Source of the DNA: an uncultured Eubacterium sp.
Lineage (GTDB): Bacteria; Bacillota; Clostridia; Peptostreptococcales; Anaerovoracaceae
Length of the DNA stretch: 13,178 bases
Direction of reading: 5' to 3'
Assembly: GCA_947367725.1 (NCBI GenBank)
Contig: CANBFZ010000016.1
Location: forward strand, 1 to 13,178
The first letter of the stretch is position 1. Every line of letters starts with the position of its first letter. This document shows positions 4,155 to 9,660 of this stretch, piece by piece. The notes under the pieces are model-generated. The model made no database searches. It had not been told where the DNA came from and saw only the letters and a program-made list of their open reading frames with translations. Position numbers and translations under genes: made by a program.

Positions 4155-4518
4155 ATGGTAGAAAGTAAAACAAAGCAGACGGTGAAAGCTGAGGTTGTCA
4201 TTGACAACAAAGAAGCCCTTGCAAAGCAAGTGCAGAAAGAACTGGAACAGGCAGTTGCGAAATCAACGAGCAAATTGCACACTGCACCGCTGGAAGTAGG
4301 CGTGAAACTGTCACAGAAGGATATCTCGCGGATGAAAGCGGAATTAAAGGATTTACATGTTGCAATTCCGAAGATTCAGCAGACCGTTGAGGTGAAGGTG
4401 AAACCGAAGGTGGATGATAAAGCACTTTTATCAATTCCGCAAACGCTTGGTAGTTTGTCAATGATAATGCCAGATTGGCTTAAGAAAAACGATATCATAG
4501 GTAAAAGATTTGCCCGCT
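4155..4518 (+). CDS. Tape measure protein, 5' exon (residues 1-121 and first base of codon 122)
   Basis: The exon codes for a charged, soluble N-terminal region with alternating strand- and helix-like pieces (VKAEVVIDNKEALAKQVQ, EVGVKLSQKDISRMKAEL, VEVKVKPKVDDKALLSI). This is usual for the start of Clostridial-type tape measure proteins. Read without splicing, the frame runs only to TAG at 4533-4535, giving a 126-residue product ending RLPQVC. That is far too short, and the tape measure body continues in another frame about 950 bases downstream. The predicted 5' splice site is after U4518, a G-U wobble in the P1 pairing of the group I intron. Spliced to U5483 it restores the frame with a Leu codon (UUA) at the junction. 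The exact splice base is inferred from pairing and not proven. Confidence 0.7.
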
Positions 4519-4890
4519 TACCGCAAGTCTGTTAGGCAAGCGTTAGGCTGTCAGCCATGTAGCTGATATGAAGCTTTCAAATTGCTGGAACAGGCTAAAG
4601 CCTGCAAGACCAAAGCGGAATCGGAAACGATAGACGTCATGGTGGGAAACCCAGAAAAAACATGCAGGATGGTATAGGCTGAGAAAAAGCCGCTGAAAGA
4701 TAGCGGTGCTAAGTACTGTAAAATGCCAAATCAGCAGCCAAGCCCCTAAACGTAAATTGCAAGGGGAAGGTTCAACGACTGTAAGGAAGCCGGAGTTATC
4801 TGATAGATAGCTTTGAAGAGACAGTCTGAACTGCAGGGAGAGCCTGCAGAGCAGGGATGAAGTGCCCTGCCGCCGTAATGATTGAAATTG

Positions 4891-4918
4891 AAAAAGAAAA
4901 AGGCGCAGAAAGCGCCTT
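4891..4918 (-). terminator. Intrinsic terminator of the antisense zinc-ribbon gene
   Basis: Read on the minus strand, AAGGCGC (4918 down to 4912) and GCGCCTT (4906 down to 4900) form a 7-bp stem with a 5-nt loop, followed by a T-rich run (4900-4891, continuing into more T). It lies 26 bases past the stop codon at 4944 and just outside the ribozyme core, whose P9.1 ends at 4870. Transcripts of the antisense gene should therefore end before copying the core. Confidence 0.8.
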
Positions 4919-4943
4919 CGTATACTGAATAGATGTGAAAGGA

Positions 4944-5414
4944 TTAACGTTGCCATTTGTAACCGCAATTTTTGCAGACGTTACGATATCCGGTAGCAAC
5001 TAAACCATCACCGGAATCCCAGCCGTAGCCAGAGGCTCCAACGCCGTTTGAACCATATTCGTAGCCGCCGCGGGTATTGATATTGGTGGAAAAACAACGC
5101 GGGCAGTGAAGACCAGAGGGAATAGCAGTTCTCTGAAGAACTTCCCTTTCCATTTCGGGATCGTATGAGCCTAAAGGGTCAATGACCTGTTTGCGCACGA
5201 ACTCAAAAACATCTTCAAAGTCAAAGTACTCAGAATTTGGAAGTTTAGCGGGGGCATCAGGCATTTGATCAAGAGCAGCTTCCCATTCTTCGTAGGATTT
5301 GCCTGTATCGATGACTTTACCACCACAGTCGGAACAACGCTGGACGGTGCCAACTTCCAAATCATCTGGCATAGCACACCTATTACACATAAATAGATGG
5401 ATTTTTTTCTCCAT
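4944..5414 (-). CDS. Double zinc-ribbon protein of unknown function, antisense inside the intron, 156 aa
   Basis: The ATG (complement of 5412-5414) is preceded by GAGGTGAGG. Seen: a first ribbon with C10-x2-C13 and C27-x2-C30 (CNRC, CSDCGG); an acidic helical middle (residues about 40-95, EEWEAALDQMP, FEDVFEFVRKQVIDP); and a second ribbon with C104-x2-C107 and C147-x2-C150 (CPRC, CKNCGYKW) flanking a Gly-rich loop (about residues 116-142). Zinc ribbons of this C-terminal form occur in many small Firmicutes phage and mobile-element proteins, generally without known function. It has no LAGLIDADG, GIY-YIG or HNH motif, so it is not an evident homing endonuclease. It is the only minus-strand gene in the window and has its own promoter and terminator, as expected of a moron. 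A nucleic-acid- or protein-binding role is plausible but unproven. Confidence 0.85.
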   Translation of the reverse strand: MEKKIHLFMCNRCAMPDDLEVGTVQRCSDCGGKVIDTGKSYEEWEAALDQMPDAPAKLPNSEYFDFEDVFEFVRKQVIDPLGSYDPEMEREVLQRTAIPSGLHCPRCFSTNINTRGGYEYGSNGVGASGYGWDSGDGLVATGYRNVCKNCGYKWQR

Positions 5415-5437
5415 GAATCCTCACCTCGCTTTCATTC

Positions 5438-5466
5438 AGTATATCATCATCTAAATGCTTTTTCAA
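5438..5466 (-). promoter_or_regulatory. Housekeeping-type promoter for the antisense zinc-ribbon gene
   Basis: On the minus strand, TTGAAA (complement of 5461-5466) and TATACT (complement of 5438-5443) are separated by exactly 17 bases, close to the SigA consensus TTGACA/TATAAT. The start codon follows 23 bases after the -10 box. The whole promoter lies inside the predicted intron, 16 bases from its 3' end. Confidence 0.75.
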
Positions 5467-5482
5467 TCAAATTTACGGTCAG

Positions 5483-8400
5483 TAACAAGAAGCACTTGTG
5501 AAAGTAACAGAGTGAAATATGAAGGAAACCAGCCAGGAAAGGTTGGGTTTGGAAAATACTTTTCCGATACTACTAGCAGTAAAGGATTGGTAATCCGTGA
5601 TAGTGAACTGGATGCTGTTAAAAAGTATAATCAGGCACTAAAAGATGGAATGTCTTCAGGAAAGGCAAGTAGAAAGCATTTAGAGGGAGTTTCTGCAGAA
5701 CTTAAACGTGTTGCTCGATCCGCCAATGGTGCAGCCATCCAATACCAACAAATTGGCTCGGCTGCCCTTGTCGGCGCATCCGGCATGAAAGGTCTTGGTA
5801 CAGCAGCAAAAATGGCAGCTTTTGAATTCGGCGCGATGCTAAAGAGCTTTGCCCTCTTCTACGCCGTTTCTGAAGCAATCAACTTGCTTTTCAAAGGGTT
5901 GCAGGCATTGTGGAATCTGGTGCCGACCCAGGATCATCTTTTGCAATGGGCAGCAGAGTCTGCGCAGAAATTGGAAGAAACCCAGTCCAACCTGGAAAGC
6001 CTGAACAGTGAACTAAAAACCACCCAGGACAGGATTTCTGAACTGAGAAATAAAGGACCGCTGTCGCTGGTGGAGGAGAAAGAACTGGACGCACTTGAAG
6101 AGGCAAATGCGAAACTAGAACGGCAGAAAGCCTTATTGGAAGCACAGGAGAAAACGCAAAAACAGAAGGCGAGTGACGACGCGTATAACGCATTGAAAGG
6201 CTATGCGCAGGTTATCACTAGACCGGATAGAACCCAGAAAAGAGTGGGCATCGATGAGCAGATTGAAATTGCAACAACCAGATATGAGAATGCAAAGGTA
6301 AATTATGCCTCGGCAAAGACCGATGCAGACCGAAAAGAATATGCTGCGCAGATGAAAAATGCCAATGAAGAAATTCTGGATTTGGCATCAAAAGCAGAAG
6401 AACAGATGAACAACATCGACCTTTCCACCGCAAGCGCAGAGGTGAAAGCCTTTGTTCTGAGCACAAAATCCGCAATCAACGAAGGACTGCTTGCTAACGG
6501 AACATTGTCGCTGGACGATTTGCTGGGCGGCGCGTTTCGTGAAGACGAATTCCGAAACTATGGAAATAAGCTGAACAGGTTGCTGGAAAATAAGGACTTT
6601 ACTTTCAGCGAAACTTCGTTGAAAGAACAGCTTGGTGAAGAATTTGTAATTGCCTGTGAGGAGGCAGGGATTTCAGTGGATGACTTAGCTGAGCACTTGC
6701 AGGAACTGAAAGATTCCGGCGGAAAGATTGAAGTCAAGGCACCAAGCTTGGAGGACTCCATCAATGAAATTTCCAACATGGAAAATGCCATGGGTGCGCT
6801 GGGAAGTGCCTGCAGTGAATTTGCTGAAAACGACGGCAAGGTATCTATCGAGACCATAGAGGGTGTTGCAGAAGCCTTTGATTCCATGTCAGATACCAAA
6901 GAGTTTCAAAATGCTATTGAAGTGCTGAGCGATTCGTCTTCATCTATTGAAGATGTTGAGGCAGCAATAAATGGTCTGGTAAACGCGTATCTGAGTAGCG
7001 AAGATGTAATGCGAAATCTGACAGATAAAAATAAGGAGTTATACATCAGCCAGCTGAAGCAGATGGGTGTTTCCAATGCGCAGGAAGTCGTAGAGTACAG
7101 GCTAGCAATGGCAAAACTACAGAATGCGTCTGCGACGGAGAAGGAAAAAGAACAGGCAAGAGCACAGATTCAAACATTACTAAAAAATAATTTAGTATTA
7201 AATGCAAATGCGACAGCAGCGTTAAATGCTGCACAGAAAAACGCACTACTTGCGACATATCAATCCTATGTATCAGGGAGCAGCTTTTCGCAGGTTGTTG
7301 CTAATAATGCGAAGTTTTTATATGAAGTAGGCCTTGCTGCGGGAGTTGCTGGAAAAAGTTTAGCACAATATGCTGAAATCATGATTCAAATCCAGGAGTT
7401 GCAAAAAAATCCCAAAGGAGAAAATGCAGTAATAATAGGAGGATTAATTGGAAAAGCAGCAGTTTTGTATGGTGAAGCGCAAGCAGCATATGAAAATATG
7501 TTTTCATTTAATAGCAGTTATATGCCGTCAGGGTTATCCTCGCCTTCAACCCCAACCTCCGGCGGCGATTCTACCCCCAAGAAAAAGCCTTCGGAGGAAC
7601 GCCGTGACGAGTACAACGCTGCAAAGGAAAAGCTGGATGACCAGCTGACAAAGAACACGATTTCCTATACGCGTTACTATCAGAAACTCACTGCGCTGGG
7701 AAAAAAATATCTCAAAGGGCAGAAGGGCAATGCCGCCGATTATCGCCAGCATTTAAATGATGTAATCGCTGCCAGAAGAGATGCTTTTTCTCATTATAAA
7801 GAACAATTGGAGCAAAGTTATGACCAGGGCACTATCAGCATCAGAACCTATTATAAAAAGACAAAGGCGCTGATGGACAAGTGGCTCAAGGGGCGCAAGT
7901 CCACAGAAGAGGATTATGCCAAAGCTTCCATCGAACTTGCGAAGAAAGTGGTGCAGAGCTGGAATGATCGGATTAGCGCCAAAGAAGCGTTTATTGAGCG
8001 ACGTGAACTGAAGCAGGACTGGGGACCTGGAAAGAATGCAGTCACTTATTGGAAAAAAGAAATGGAGCGGCTGCAGGAAGATTATGGTGCTGGTTTATTT
8101 GGCAGTACCAAAGATTTTCTGGAAATATACCGTAAGCTGGAAGAAAAACTGTTGAAAGCGGAGCGGGAACTTGCTGAGGCAGAACTGGAGAAAATCGAGA
8201 AGCGCGTAGATTCGATCAATAGTTTGACGGACATGGTTTCCGACATGCTGAAACAGCGCCATGAAGATATGATCGACGCGCTGGAAGAGCAGGTTGATAA
8301 GTATAAAGAGATTGTTGACCAGAAGAAAAAATCCTTGGATCTCACCCGAGATGAACTTTCCTATCAGAGAGAGATGAAAGAGCAGGGGGAAGAGCTGGCG

Positions 8401-9660
8401 AAAATGCAGGCAAGAGCCGCAGTGCTGGCGCTGGATAATTCCCGCGAAGGTAAGGCGAAGTATGCCGCCCTCATGGAGGAAATCCGGCAGAAGCAGGAAG
8501 ACATCAGTGAGAAACAAGCAGACAGAGCCTATGACGCCAAGGTGAAAGCACTTGACGAGGCAAGCGATGCTTATGAAAAAGCGATGCAGCATAAGATTGA
8601 TGGGCTGAATGAACAGATGGAGCATGCGGGACAGTGGCAGGAATATGTTTATAGCTATATCAAAAATACCAATCCTTCCCGCCTGTTGGAAGAGCTGAAC
8701 CGCTACAATTATCAGTACGGAGATGGAATGAAAAATACCGTATCAGATATATGGATTGAATGTAAAGATCTTTTAACGCAGTATGGCTCGGACATTGTAC
8801 AAATTTTGCAGGCGCAAAAAACTGCGGAGCAGGAGCAGAAAAAGAACCTAGGAAATAGTGATAACCCATCGGCAGCGTATATCTCGAAAGCAGAAGTAGA
8901 AAAGGCGATCAAGCCGAAGAATTCGCGGGCGGCAAGTGAAGACTATAATTTTGCTATATTGGACAGACTGCAGCGAGGCGGTTGGAACAATGGGAATATC
9001 TGGTATGATACAGAAAACAAGGTATTCTATGCGGGAAAACAGGGGGATCGCAGAGTCACAGTACACACGTATAAATTAATTGATGAAATGAAAGAAATCA
9101 ACGATTCTAAGAAGTCTAAGTCAGAAAAAGAAAAAGCACTGAAATCGAAGCTGAAAACCCTTAAGTCCATGTGGAGTTATGGCGAAGCCCATTTGGAATG
9201 GAATAGTAAAGAAAAGAAATTCCATTTGCACAAATATAAAGGCACCAGCGCCAAATGGCAGATTTTCCACGACGGACTTTCCGCAGGTTTTGTCGGCAGC
9301 TACGTTCCAACACCGAAGCAGAACGAAACCTATGCGCTGCTGCAGAAGGGAGAACTGGTACTGAACCGTGCCGACCAAAAGCGCCTCGGCATACAGATGC
9401 AGGCGCTGACGTTTTTGACAGAAGGACTGCACAAGACAGGGCTTTCCGGTATAAGCAGCGGAGGTCTTGGCATGGGGGATATCGTAGTAAATGTGCAGGC
9501 GCCTGTCACCATCGAAGGAAATGCCGATGCGAATACTGTGAAAGCGCTCCGCGAGTATGGCGATTATATTTCCGGGCAGACCCTTTCCAAGCTGCAGTCC
9601 GCTATGAATCGCCGGGGCTACGCGTCTCGTGCCGCAGCAAATGCAATGAAAAGACAATAA
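5483..9660 (+). CDS. Tape measure protein, 3' exon (remainder of codon 122 to residue 1513)
   Basis: This exon holds the bulk of the tape measure, which sets tail length and is ejected during infection. Positions refer to the spliced protein. Seen: a hydrophobic, potentially membrane-interacting segment at about residues 225-270 (MAAFEFGAMLKSFALFYAVSE); long coiled-coil-type stretches at about 280-350 and 1005-1180; a Ser/Thr/Pro/Gly linker at about 806-830 (SSPSTPTSGGDSTPKKK); two tandem 58-residue repeats starting at 7627 and 7801; and a C-terminus typical of these proteins (FHDGLSAGFVG, LLQKGELVLNRADQKRLG, NVQAPVTIEGNA). The first ATG of the uninterrupted frame, at 5455, has no ribosome binding site and directly follows a stop, so it is unlikely to be used. 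The first 230 bases and about 6960-7530 are visibly more A+T-rich than the rest, suggesting a mosaic gene. A stop at 9658-9660 precedes the next gene by 22 bases. Confidence 0.9.

Follow-up and report, generated by a model that had tools for sequence, protein, structure and literature searches.

An antisense zinc-ribbon gene within a group I intron of a phage tape-measure gene, a probable passenger at a recurrent cargo site

The window analyzed here (i.e., the whole stretch of 13,178 bases) is one contig (G000:C16) of a 360-contig assembly with a completeness of 74%. It encodes a phage tail region with an amidase, structural proteins, a tape measure (TMP) and a Dit-like tail protein, which we infer to belong to a prophage, and the TMP gene carries a group I intron. 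The Rfam model RF00028 was matched at 4493–4849 (+) over its full length (model positions 1–253; 75.2 bits, E 5.8e-18), covering the conserved core P3–P9 of such introns, and this was the sole Rfam group I match at E ≤ 0.001 in the whole assembly. The ends of the intron (4503–5514, +, 1012 nt) were placed by hand from P1, P10 and the omega-G at 5514. TMP exon 1 (4155–4502, +) is an ORF of 116 codons ending in ...KNDIIG (GGU), its splice site being set by P1 and by the frame of exon 2, while exon 2 (5515–9660, +) is an ORF that begins AAAUAU and matches the tape-measure family phrog_4211 (E 3.9e-17). P1 was read as GGU-AAA / UUU-GCC, with the U.G pair at the splice site and the 5' cut after GGU at 4502 (GGU|AAAAG), and P10 as AAAU/AUUU; the intron ends in GAAAGTAACAGAGTG (5500–5514, +) with its terminal G, and the reading frame is kept across the junction of the two exons. 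A 5' splice site of the same kind and a similar 3' end motif were present in G040, a genome from a different genus of the same family, and in the IMG/VR locus L088.

Downstream of the core, a peripheral hairpin (GCAGGG...CCCTGC, 4851–4870, +) was recognized by eye, followed by the 5' strand (4873–4887, +) of a stem whose 3' strand lies at about 5461–5478 (+), where it overlaps the –35 box of a promoter on the minus strand. When the two strands were joined by a linker, RNAfold gave this stem an energy of –17.5 kcal/mol, and as it encloses an antisense gene, the gene occupies a peripheral loop of the intron. The inverted repeat that forms this stem was considered as the end of a mobile element, which was rejected in favor of a peripheral stem since G040 shares it in the same place. 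Neither a transposase nor TnpB was seen by eye among the listed ORFs in 4503–5514, so the intron lacks the hallmark of an IStron.

The sequence-only reading of this DNA had placed an antisense double zinc-ribbon gene in the 3' part of the intron, and this is borne out: an ORF for 156 aa without internal stop (4944–5414, –), for which homologues were found, lies with its signals between the core and the 3' splice site, at the 3' end of the intron. The complete transcription unit that had been claimed for it stands as far as its parts are concerned, i.e., a SigA-type promoter (TTGAAA-17-TATACT, 5438–5466, –; 10/12, with TG before the second hexamer), a Shine-Dalgarno-like GAGGTGAGG read from the sequence 4 nt before the ATG (5419–5427, –) and an intrinsic terminator formed by an 8-pair hairpin and a T-run (4899–4919, –), but each of the three is only modestly better than chance. 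One promoter-like site was found in the scanned region against 1.5 expected, with its score being reached by 3% of shuffles of the 110 nt that precede the ORF, and three terminator-like sites, all on the minus strand, against 1.1 expected. In a first set of loci, promoters scored at least 9 in six of eight cases (sum reached by 38/2000 shuffles); among 12 held-out IMG/VR loci, L090 (12/12) and L104 (11/12) had strong promoters and the sum was not significant (114/1000 shuffles). A phage moron would have a promoter and terminator of its own, lie opposite to the surrounding genes and be dispensable for phage structure; such signals are present here but modest against shuffles, and for the promoters not significant in the held-out loci.

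Could the ORF be a chance open frame on the minus strand of the intron? Among 1000 dinucleotide-shuffled versions of the 1012-nt intron, 24 had an ORF as long, and the codon usage of the real ORF, unlike that of phage genes, scored below all eight phage genes compared, as a fortuitous frame would allow, but homologues down to about 25–30% identity, in other introns as well as outside introns, still keep the zinc ligands, and this conservation of cysteines brings the explanation close to exclusion. Judged by these homologues, the antisense ORF is a real gene because the cysteines are conserved, and not because of its length or its signals.

The protein has two CxxC...CxxC ribbons (C10, C13, C27 and C30; C104, C107, C147 and C150) and will be called ZR below. 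In an alignment of 17 sequences ten positions were invariant, seven of them cysteines (C10, C27, C30, C104, C107, C147, C150), with C13 nearly so. It had nine protein matches at E ≤ 1e-3 (39–97% identical) and 21 by profile, and it weakly matched phrog_2546 and phrog_3845, two PHROGs with no assigned function. The window gene had no tblastn match in INPHARED phages or PLSDB, and IMG/VR queries with the close ZR family, the intron P7 pattern, the TMP or the G040 ORF returned nothing for it; its one contig match (L002) was discarded as, by eye, a TerD-like protein with a zinc ribbon in an unrelated context. Several of the homologues P0002–P0008 share near-identical C-terminal 55 residues next to strongly divergent N-terminal parts, as if one half had been exchanged by recombination. 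Two further homologues (P0004 and P0093, 75% and 51% identical to the window protein) both have a longest contig of 45,252, perhaps reflecting two ZR genes in one phage. Profile matches to solved structures were weak (best a gelsolin chain, E 0.0014); many of them were zinc-ribbon subunits of RNA polymerase, which suggests that ZR may contact nucleic acid or the polymerase.

The gene had been described as standing in place of a homing endonuclease, a fair description given that scans of family members (Pfam, NCBIfam, PHROGs, PADLOC) gave no nuclease domain with a convincing score. LAGLIDADG, GIY-YIG, HNH, His-Cys and PD-(D/E)XK domains were absent from the longest intron ORF and the scanned relatives; besides this ORF, the intron has a 141-aa frame with a TTG start over the core (4543–4968, –). 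The lack of a catalytic nuclease domain at a convincing score, together with the weak structure matches, speaks against ZR being a mobility or maintenance factor of the intron itself (as an unrecognized endonuclease, by binding the target site or by assisting splicing) instead of cargo, an explanation that we regard as unlikely. It draws some support from weak matches of zinc regions, namely that of the G040 protein to an HNH endonuclease PHROG (E 0.028) and that of P0007 to the integrase phrog_95 (E 4.5e-7) and the recombinase XisF (E 2.4e-6, far below its cut-off), and from the existence of antisense homing endonucleases such as the LAGLIDADG gene of G238 (see below) and the putative one of phage LittleE (PMC3706429). 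As to location, it is supported by ZR adjoining the TMP 3' exon in most loci, whereas the other genes vary; on the other side, ZR lies 2.5–6 kb from that exon in L095 and L102, and relatives elsewhere stand, by eye, beside integrase-like genes.

Genomes were surveyed for such genes at increasing taxonomic breadth. Within the family (349 genomes) a first ZR profile matched two genomes, and RF00028 was found at E ≤ 0.001 in six, five of them above the cut-off. The order (393 genomes) gave six genomes with a ZR match, three of them strong (the window, G040 and G207); around the three weak matches no TMP was seen among the ORFs within about 1.5 kb. Among 391 genomes of the class 42 had a match, and the context was read from 15 fetched loci, mostly the best-scoring: ZR adjoins the TMP 3' part in antisense, 44–446 nt away, in five of these (L055–L058 and L064) and lies away from TMP in ten. 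L057 and L064 resemble decayed remnants, the contig of L055 lacks the TMP 5' part, and in L061 the ZR gene is on the same strand as a neighboring ORF that is TMP-like by eye and had no BLAST match. The phylum (398 genomes) added nine genomes besides the window, with weak matches mainly to the C-terminal ribbon, none of them beside a TMP within the short flanks examined. In the INPHARED record MT837120.1 a TMP 5' exon is followed by antisense ORFs and a truncated ZR at the contig end, so that any 3' exon would fall beyond the contig.

A scan of IMG/VR with an alignment of distant ZR sequences yielded 18 loci. Twelve of them (L088–L091, L093, L094, L098, L100, L101 and L103–L105) have a ZR ORF in antisense 6–275 nt from the start of an ORF with the TMP 3' exon, although in L100 the abutting ZR ORF differs from the one originally matched. 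In L095, L096 and L102 the gene lies 2.5–6 kb upstream of the TMP 3' part; L097 repeats L095 on a stretch without TMP (L095–L097 being near copies of one another), and two of the 18, L092 and L099, are without TMP. TMP 5' pieces were found beyond the insert in L088, L090, L093, L098, L100, L101, L103 and L104, and the 5' part was located further in the records of L091, L094, L095 and L102. Every abutting ZR gene is antisense, in 5/5 class and 12/12 IMG/VR loci. A single origin of the TMP-located ZRs was considered and found unsupported (tree with six changes, 84/500 shuffles as low). In three loci successive inserts cut the TMP gene into at least three exon-like pieces (L098 8796–14395, L103 11312–14165, L100 11137–13962).

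These distributions do away with the possibility, raised as a counter-test of the sequence-only reading, that homologues always lie outside introns and that the window is a one-off, as ZR stands antisense against TMP in G040 and G207, both of the window's family, in 5/15 class loci and in 12/18 IMG/VR loci. The wider proposal of a cargo-carrying intron gains from this recurrence at TMP 3' exons and is tempered by the relatives that lie away from TMP (10/15 class loci), and the check proposed with it, whether related introns elsewhere carry the same or other antisense cargo, showed antisense ZR genes recurring and extra cargo lying between some TMP parts.

The nearest parallel is G040, whose TMP gene has a group I intron (64.5 bits) with in-frame splice sites, a P10 of 6 bp and the 3' end motif GTAACAG. 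Its downstream TMP exon is 38% identical to that of the window, and its antisense ZR (264 aa, with a duplicated N-terminal ribbon and about 30% identity to the window protein) is preceded by the promoter TTGACC-17-TATACT and a strong Shine-Dalgarno site. Of the TMP homologues found in the protein database, the six nearest (75–94%) start at or just before exon 2, and the fused exon 1 was absent from all six, as expected if all of them are split at this site. The ZR protein P0006 and the TMP P0013 probably share a contig, their longest contigs both being 109,694. In G207 (protein named Anaerovorax sp. IOR16) ZR lies on the opposite strand immediately upstream of TMP exon 3; aligned with P0019, an intact TMP, exon 1 matches up to residue 653 and exon 2 from 654. 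The second insert of this gene contains, besides ZR, an IS256-type transposase and other genes (by eye), and for this reason does not have the size of a simple intron; the G207 gene had been a candidate for a free-standing homologue, which was dropped as its neighbors place it between TMP exons. The first TMP intron of G207 (L015 5530–7580, +) differs from the ZR-bearing second insert in that its gene is on the sense strand; this gene, which has CapR/DUF4379 zinc repeats and a weakly matched DUF2726 end, likely encodes a homing endonuclease.

For intron cores in more distant relatives, a group I model (R1) was built from the window, G040, G349 and G351 and run on 14 of the 18 IMG/VR loci. It matched L088 (1.3e-11), L090 (1.1e-8) and L102 (1.1e-8), none of which was in the training set, and more weakly L101, twice (0.003 and 0.018), with three further matches at E 0.1–0.8; two matches in L098 (1.6e-7, 1.3e-5) are upstream introns of the same TMP. 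In L088, L090, L102 and L101 the R1 core lies between the TMP 5' part and ZR, starting in L102 about 260 nt past the end of the TMP 5' match, and of the eight IMG/VR loci in which ZR abuts TMP and a TMP 5' piece is present as well, three have an R1-supported core in the ZR insert, one of them weakly. The two models disagree because RF00028 misses the R1 cores in L088, L090 and L102: at the gathering score Rfam found no group I intron in eight of the IMG/VR loci, L088 and L090 included, and RF00028 had no match at the place of the L102 core. L088 was read by hand as GGU|AGAAAUAUGCC at its 5' splice site and GAAAGTAACAGATTG at its 3' end, followed by exon 2 (ATATTA), with a P10 of 5 bp, an in-frame junction and a 3' motif as in the window.

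The ZR-bearing TMP inserts of G207 (the second), G579, G766 and MT837120 were matched by neither RF00028 nor R1. Hand-read P4, P6 and P7 helices are present in all four, and we take their P7 strands to resemble those of classical introns. A crude core descriptor was equalled in 0, 1, 0 and 22 of 40 shuffles, respectively, a test of low power given that it yielded 7/40 for G040 and 20/40 for a known intron, which it missed. From the collinearity of their TMP parts and the hand-read helices these inserts are probably group I introns.

Several other elements were encountered in the same genomes. Downstream of TMP exon 2 in G579 there is another group I core (L056 1336–1482, –; R1 E 4e-15, RF00028 63 bits), and the G579 prophage also has a probable IStron (L071 5834–7923, –), in which genes that look, by eye, like TnpB and an IS607-type recombinase are next to a group I core (R1 E 2e-7, RF00028 46 bits, under the cut-off). 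In G238 an antisense LAGLIDADG gene lies just downstream of the tmRNA gene (L011 1840–2268, –; L016 5333–5659), the 3' end of which has a weak group I match (28 bits), making this a probable tmRNA intron with an antisense homing endonuclease gene. A skipping-rope RNA (RF02924, 68 bits) was found within the TMP insert of L103 (9550–9633, –).

The inserts appear to use the same place in TMP, within the limits of such alignments. On P0019 the 5' exons of G207 (exon 2), G579, G766 and MT837120 end at about 731–742 when extended to the last residue, and on P0052 exon 1 of G579 ends at about 686 where exon 2 of the window starts at about 687 (both extended from the matched parts); exon 1 of the window had no match in the TMP alignments, and that of G040 had weak matches elsewhere. 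What lies between the TMP parts varies. Bro-N antirepressors were found there in L088 (Pfam) and, by eye, in G207 and G579, as well as in G762, by eye and without its TMP 5' part; the G579 insert also has an ImmA/IrrE-like protein (by eye), and those of G207 and G766 contain IS256-/IS66-type elements and tail-fibre-like genes (by eye). In G766 about 11 kb separate two TMP parts (L058 8642 to L070 5067), a stretch in which an IS66-type element accompanies several tail-fibre-like genes, again by eye.

Ten cargo proteins were scanned against PADLOC, five of which had no match at E ≤ 0.001. The others matched models for NsnB in L091 (9e-63) and L094 (8e-74), NsnC in L091 (5e-12), NsnA in L095 (2e-60) and AbiU in L102 (4e-23), at L091 3136–5607, L094 8369–9901, L095 4302–5741 and L102 4841–6712; Pfam assigned AAA_15, GmrSD_N with Mrr_N, and AIPR domains to these proteins. 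In all four records the defence-like genes lie between TMP parts, with the TMP 5' part on the same strand beyond them; the parts are about 15, 8, 16 and 10 kb apart (L091, L094, L095 and L102) and the 5' matches end at P0019 positions 719, 735, 737 and 741, the one in L091 containing two stop codons. The NsnB/NsnC and AbiU genes have the orientation of TMP, whereas the NsnA-like gene and, in 4/4, ZR run antisense to it.

Such mixed contents would also be expected if common phage ZR genes repeatedly landed at a permissive, recombinogenic spot in TMP and the intron were incidental, and the IS256-/IS66-type elements (by eye) and unrelated genes of the inserts, the non-monophyly of TMP-located ZRs and the several inserts without a model-supported core all fit this explanation. 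We nevertheless consider it improbable, as the TMP parts flanking the inserts remain collinear with intact TMPs, model-supported cores are present in the window, G040, L088, L090 and L102, and the antisense orientation is constant in abutting loci, L061 offering the one same-strand neighbor. Moreover, the TMP parts join in frame in the window, G040 and L088, which would need splicing.

We therefore favor, with reasonable but not full confidence, the reading that a group I intron, recurring at one site in phage TMP genes, serves as a harbor for accessory genes, with ZR as the commonest passenger seen. The intron, its splice frame, the antisense gene, the recurrence and the extra cargo between TMP parts can all be read from the sequences, and the recurrence supports the cargo reading; splicing, minus-strand expression, a benefit and an activity of the protein would follow from it. 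Late in infection, TMP transcription would run through the cargo and the core would excise everything between the exons, so that full TMP could be made. ZR, which is antisense and in most cases the 3'-terminal gene of the insert, would be expressible from its own promoter when the late operon is off, for example in a lysogen; the antisense orientation would permit a terminator with its U-run on the minus strand only, for which reason the late transcript would not be stopped by it. The protein would most likely bind nucleic acid or RNA polymerase and act as an accessory regulator or exclusion factor expressed from the prophage. A broader version would make the TMP introns of temperate Clostridia phages into a general cargo island, where a single splice site allows 1–16 kb of accessory genes (including anti-phage defence systems and antirepressors) to be stored in an essential late gene, with the antisense ZR as a signature component that may control expression of the island or of the late operon. 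This version strikes us as evenly poised; the finding of defence-like genes between TMP parts in all four records raised its odds.

Known systems share parts of this arrangement. IStrons are group I introns fused to IS elements that carry further genes removed by splicing; their cargo is a transposition module, and the window intron has no such ORF by eye. A giant group I intron of coral mitochondria reportedly holds other genes. The large, complex intron described for coral (PMC6545197) is a case of organelle gene order and not of phage cargo. Closer are the introns in the TMP gene of Vibrio phage ICP1 (PMC10448857), a multi-intron gene with splicing confirmed by RNA-seq and RT-PCR, where intron content varies and the splice junctions stay. 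The TMP gene is the host in both cases, but the ICP1 cargo consists of homing endonucleases, whereas an antisense ZR, with defence-like genes in relatives and no recognized endonuclease, is found here. The capsid intron of mycobacteriophage LittleE (PMC3706429) likewise interrupts a late phage gene and carries an opposite-strand gene, in that case a putative homing endonuclease and not a recurrent accessory gene. Opposite-strand genes in group I introns are also described for nuclear rDNA (PMC9548176), where the setting is eukaryotic and the antisense genes encode His-Cys homing endonucleases.

Earlier work documents TMP introns with homing endonucleases (ICP1) as well as phage introns whose antisense gene encodes an endonuclease. 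Among the open-access titles and abstract openings listed, a set outside which most subscription papers and preprints fall, no description of non-endonuclease or defence cargo in TMP introns was found. What our data support is a phage group I intron with an antisense accessory gene as passenger, in a place of TMP where other phages carry larger and in part defence-like cargo. The usual view of phage introns is that of selfish homing elements. Should TMP introns prove to be recurrent cargo holds, they would show how a packed late operon can take up further genes and stay intact, and the antisense layout predicts that these would be expressed in lysogens. Unannotated accessory and defence genes could then be sought by a simple rule, namely to look between TMP fragments.
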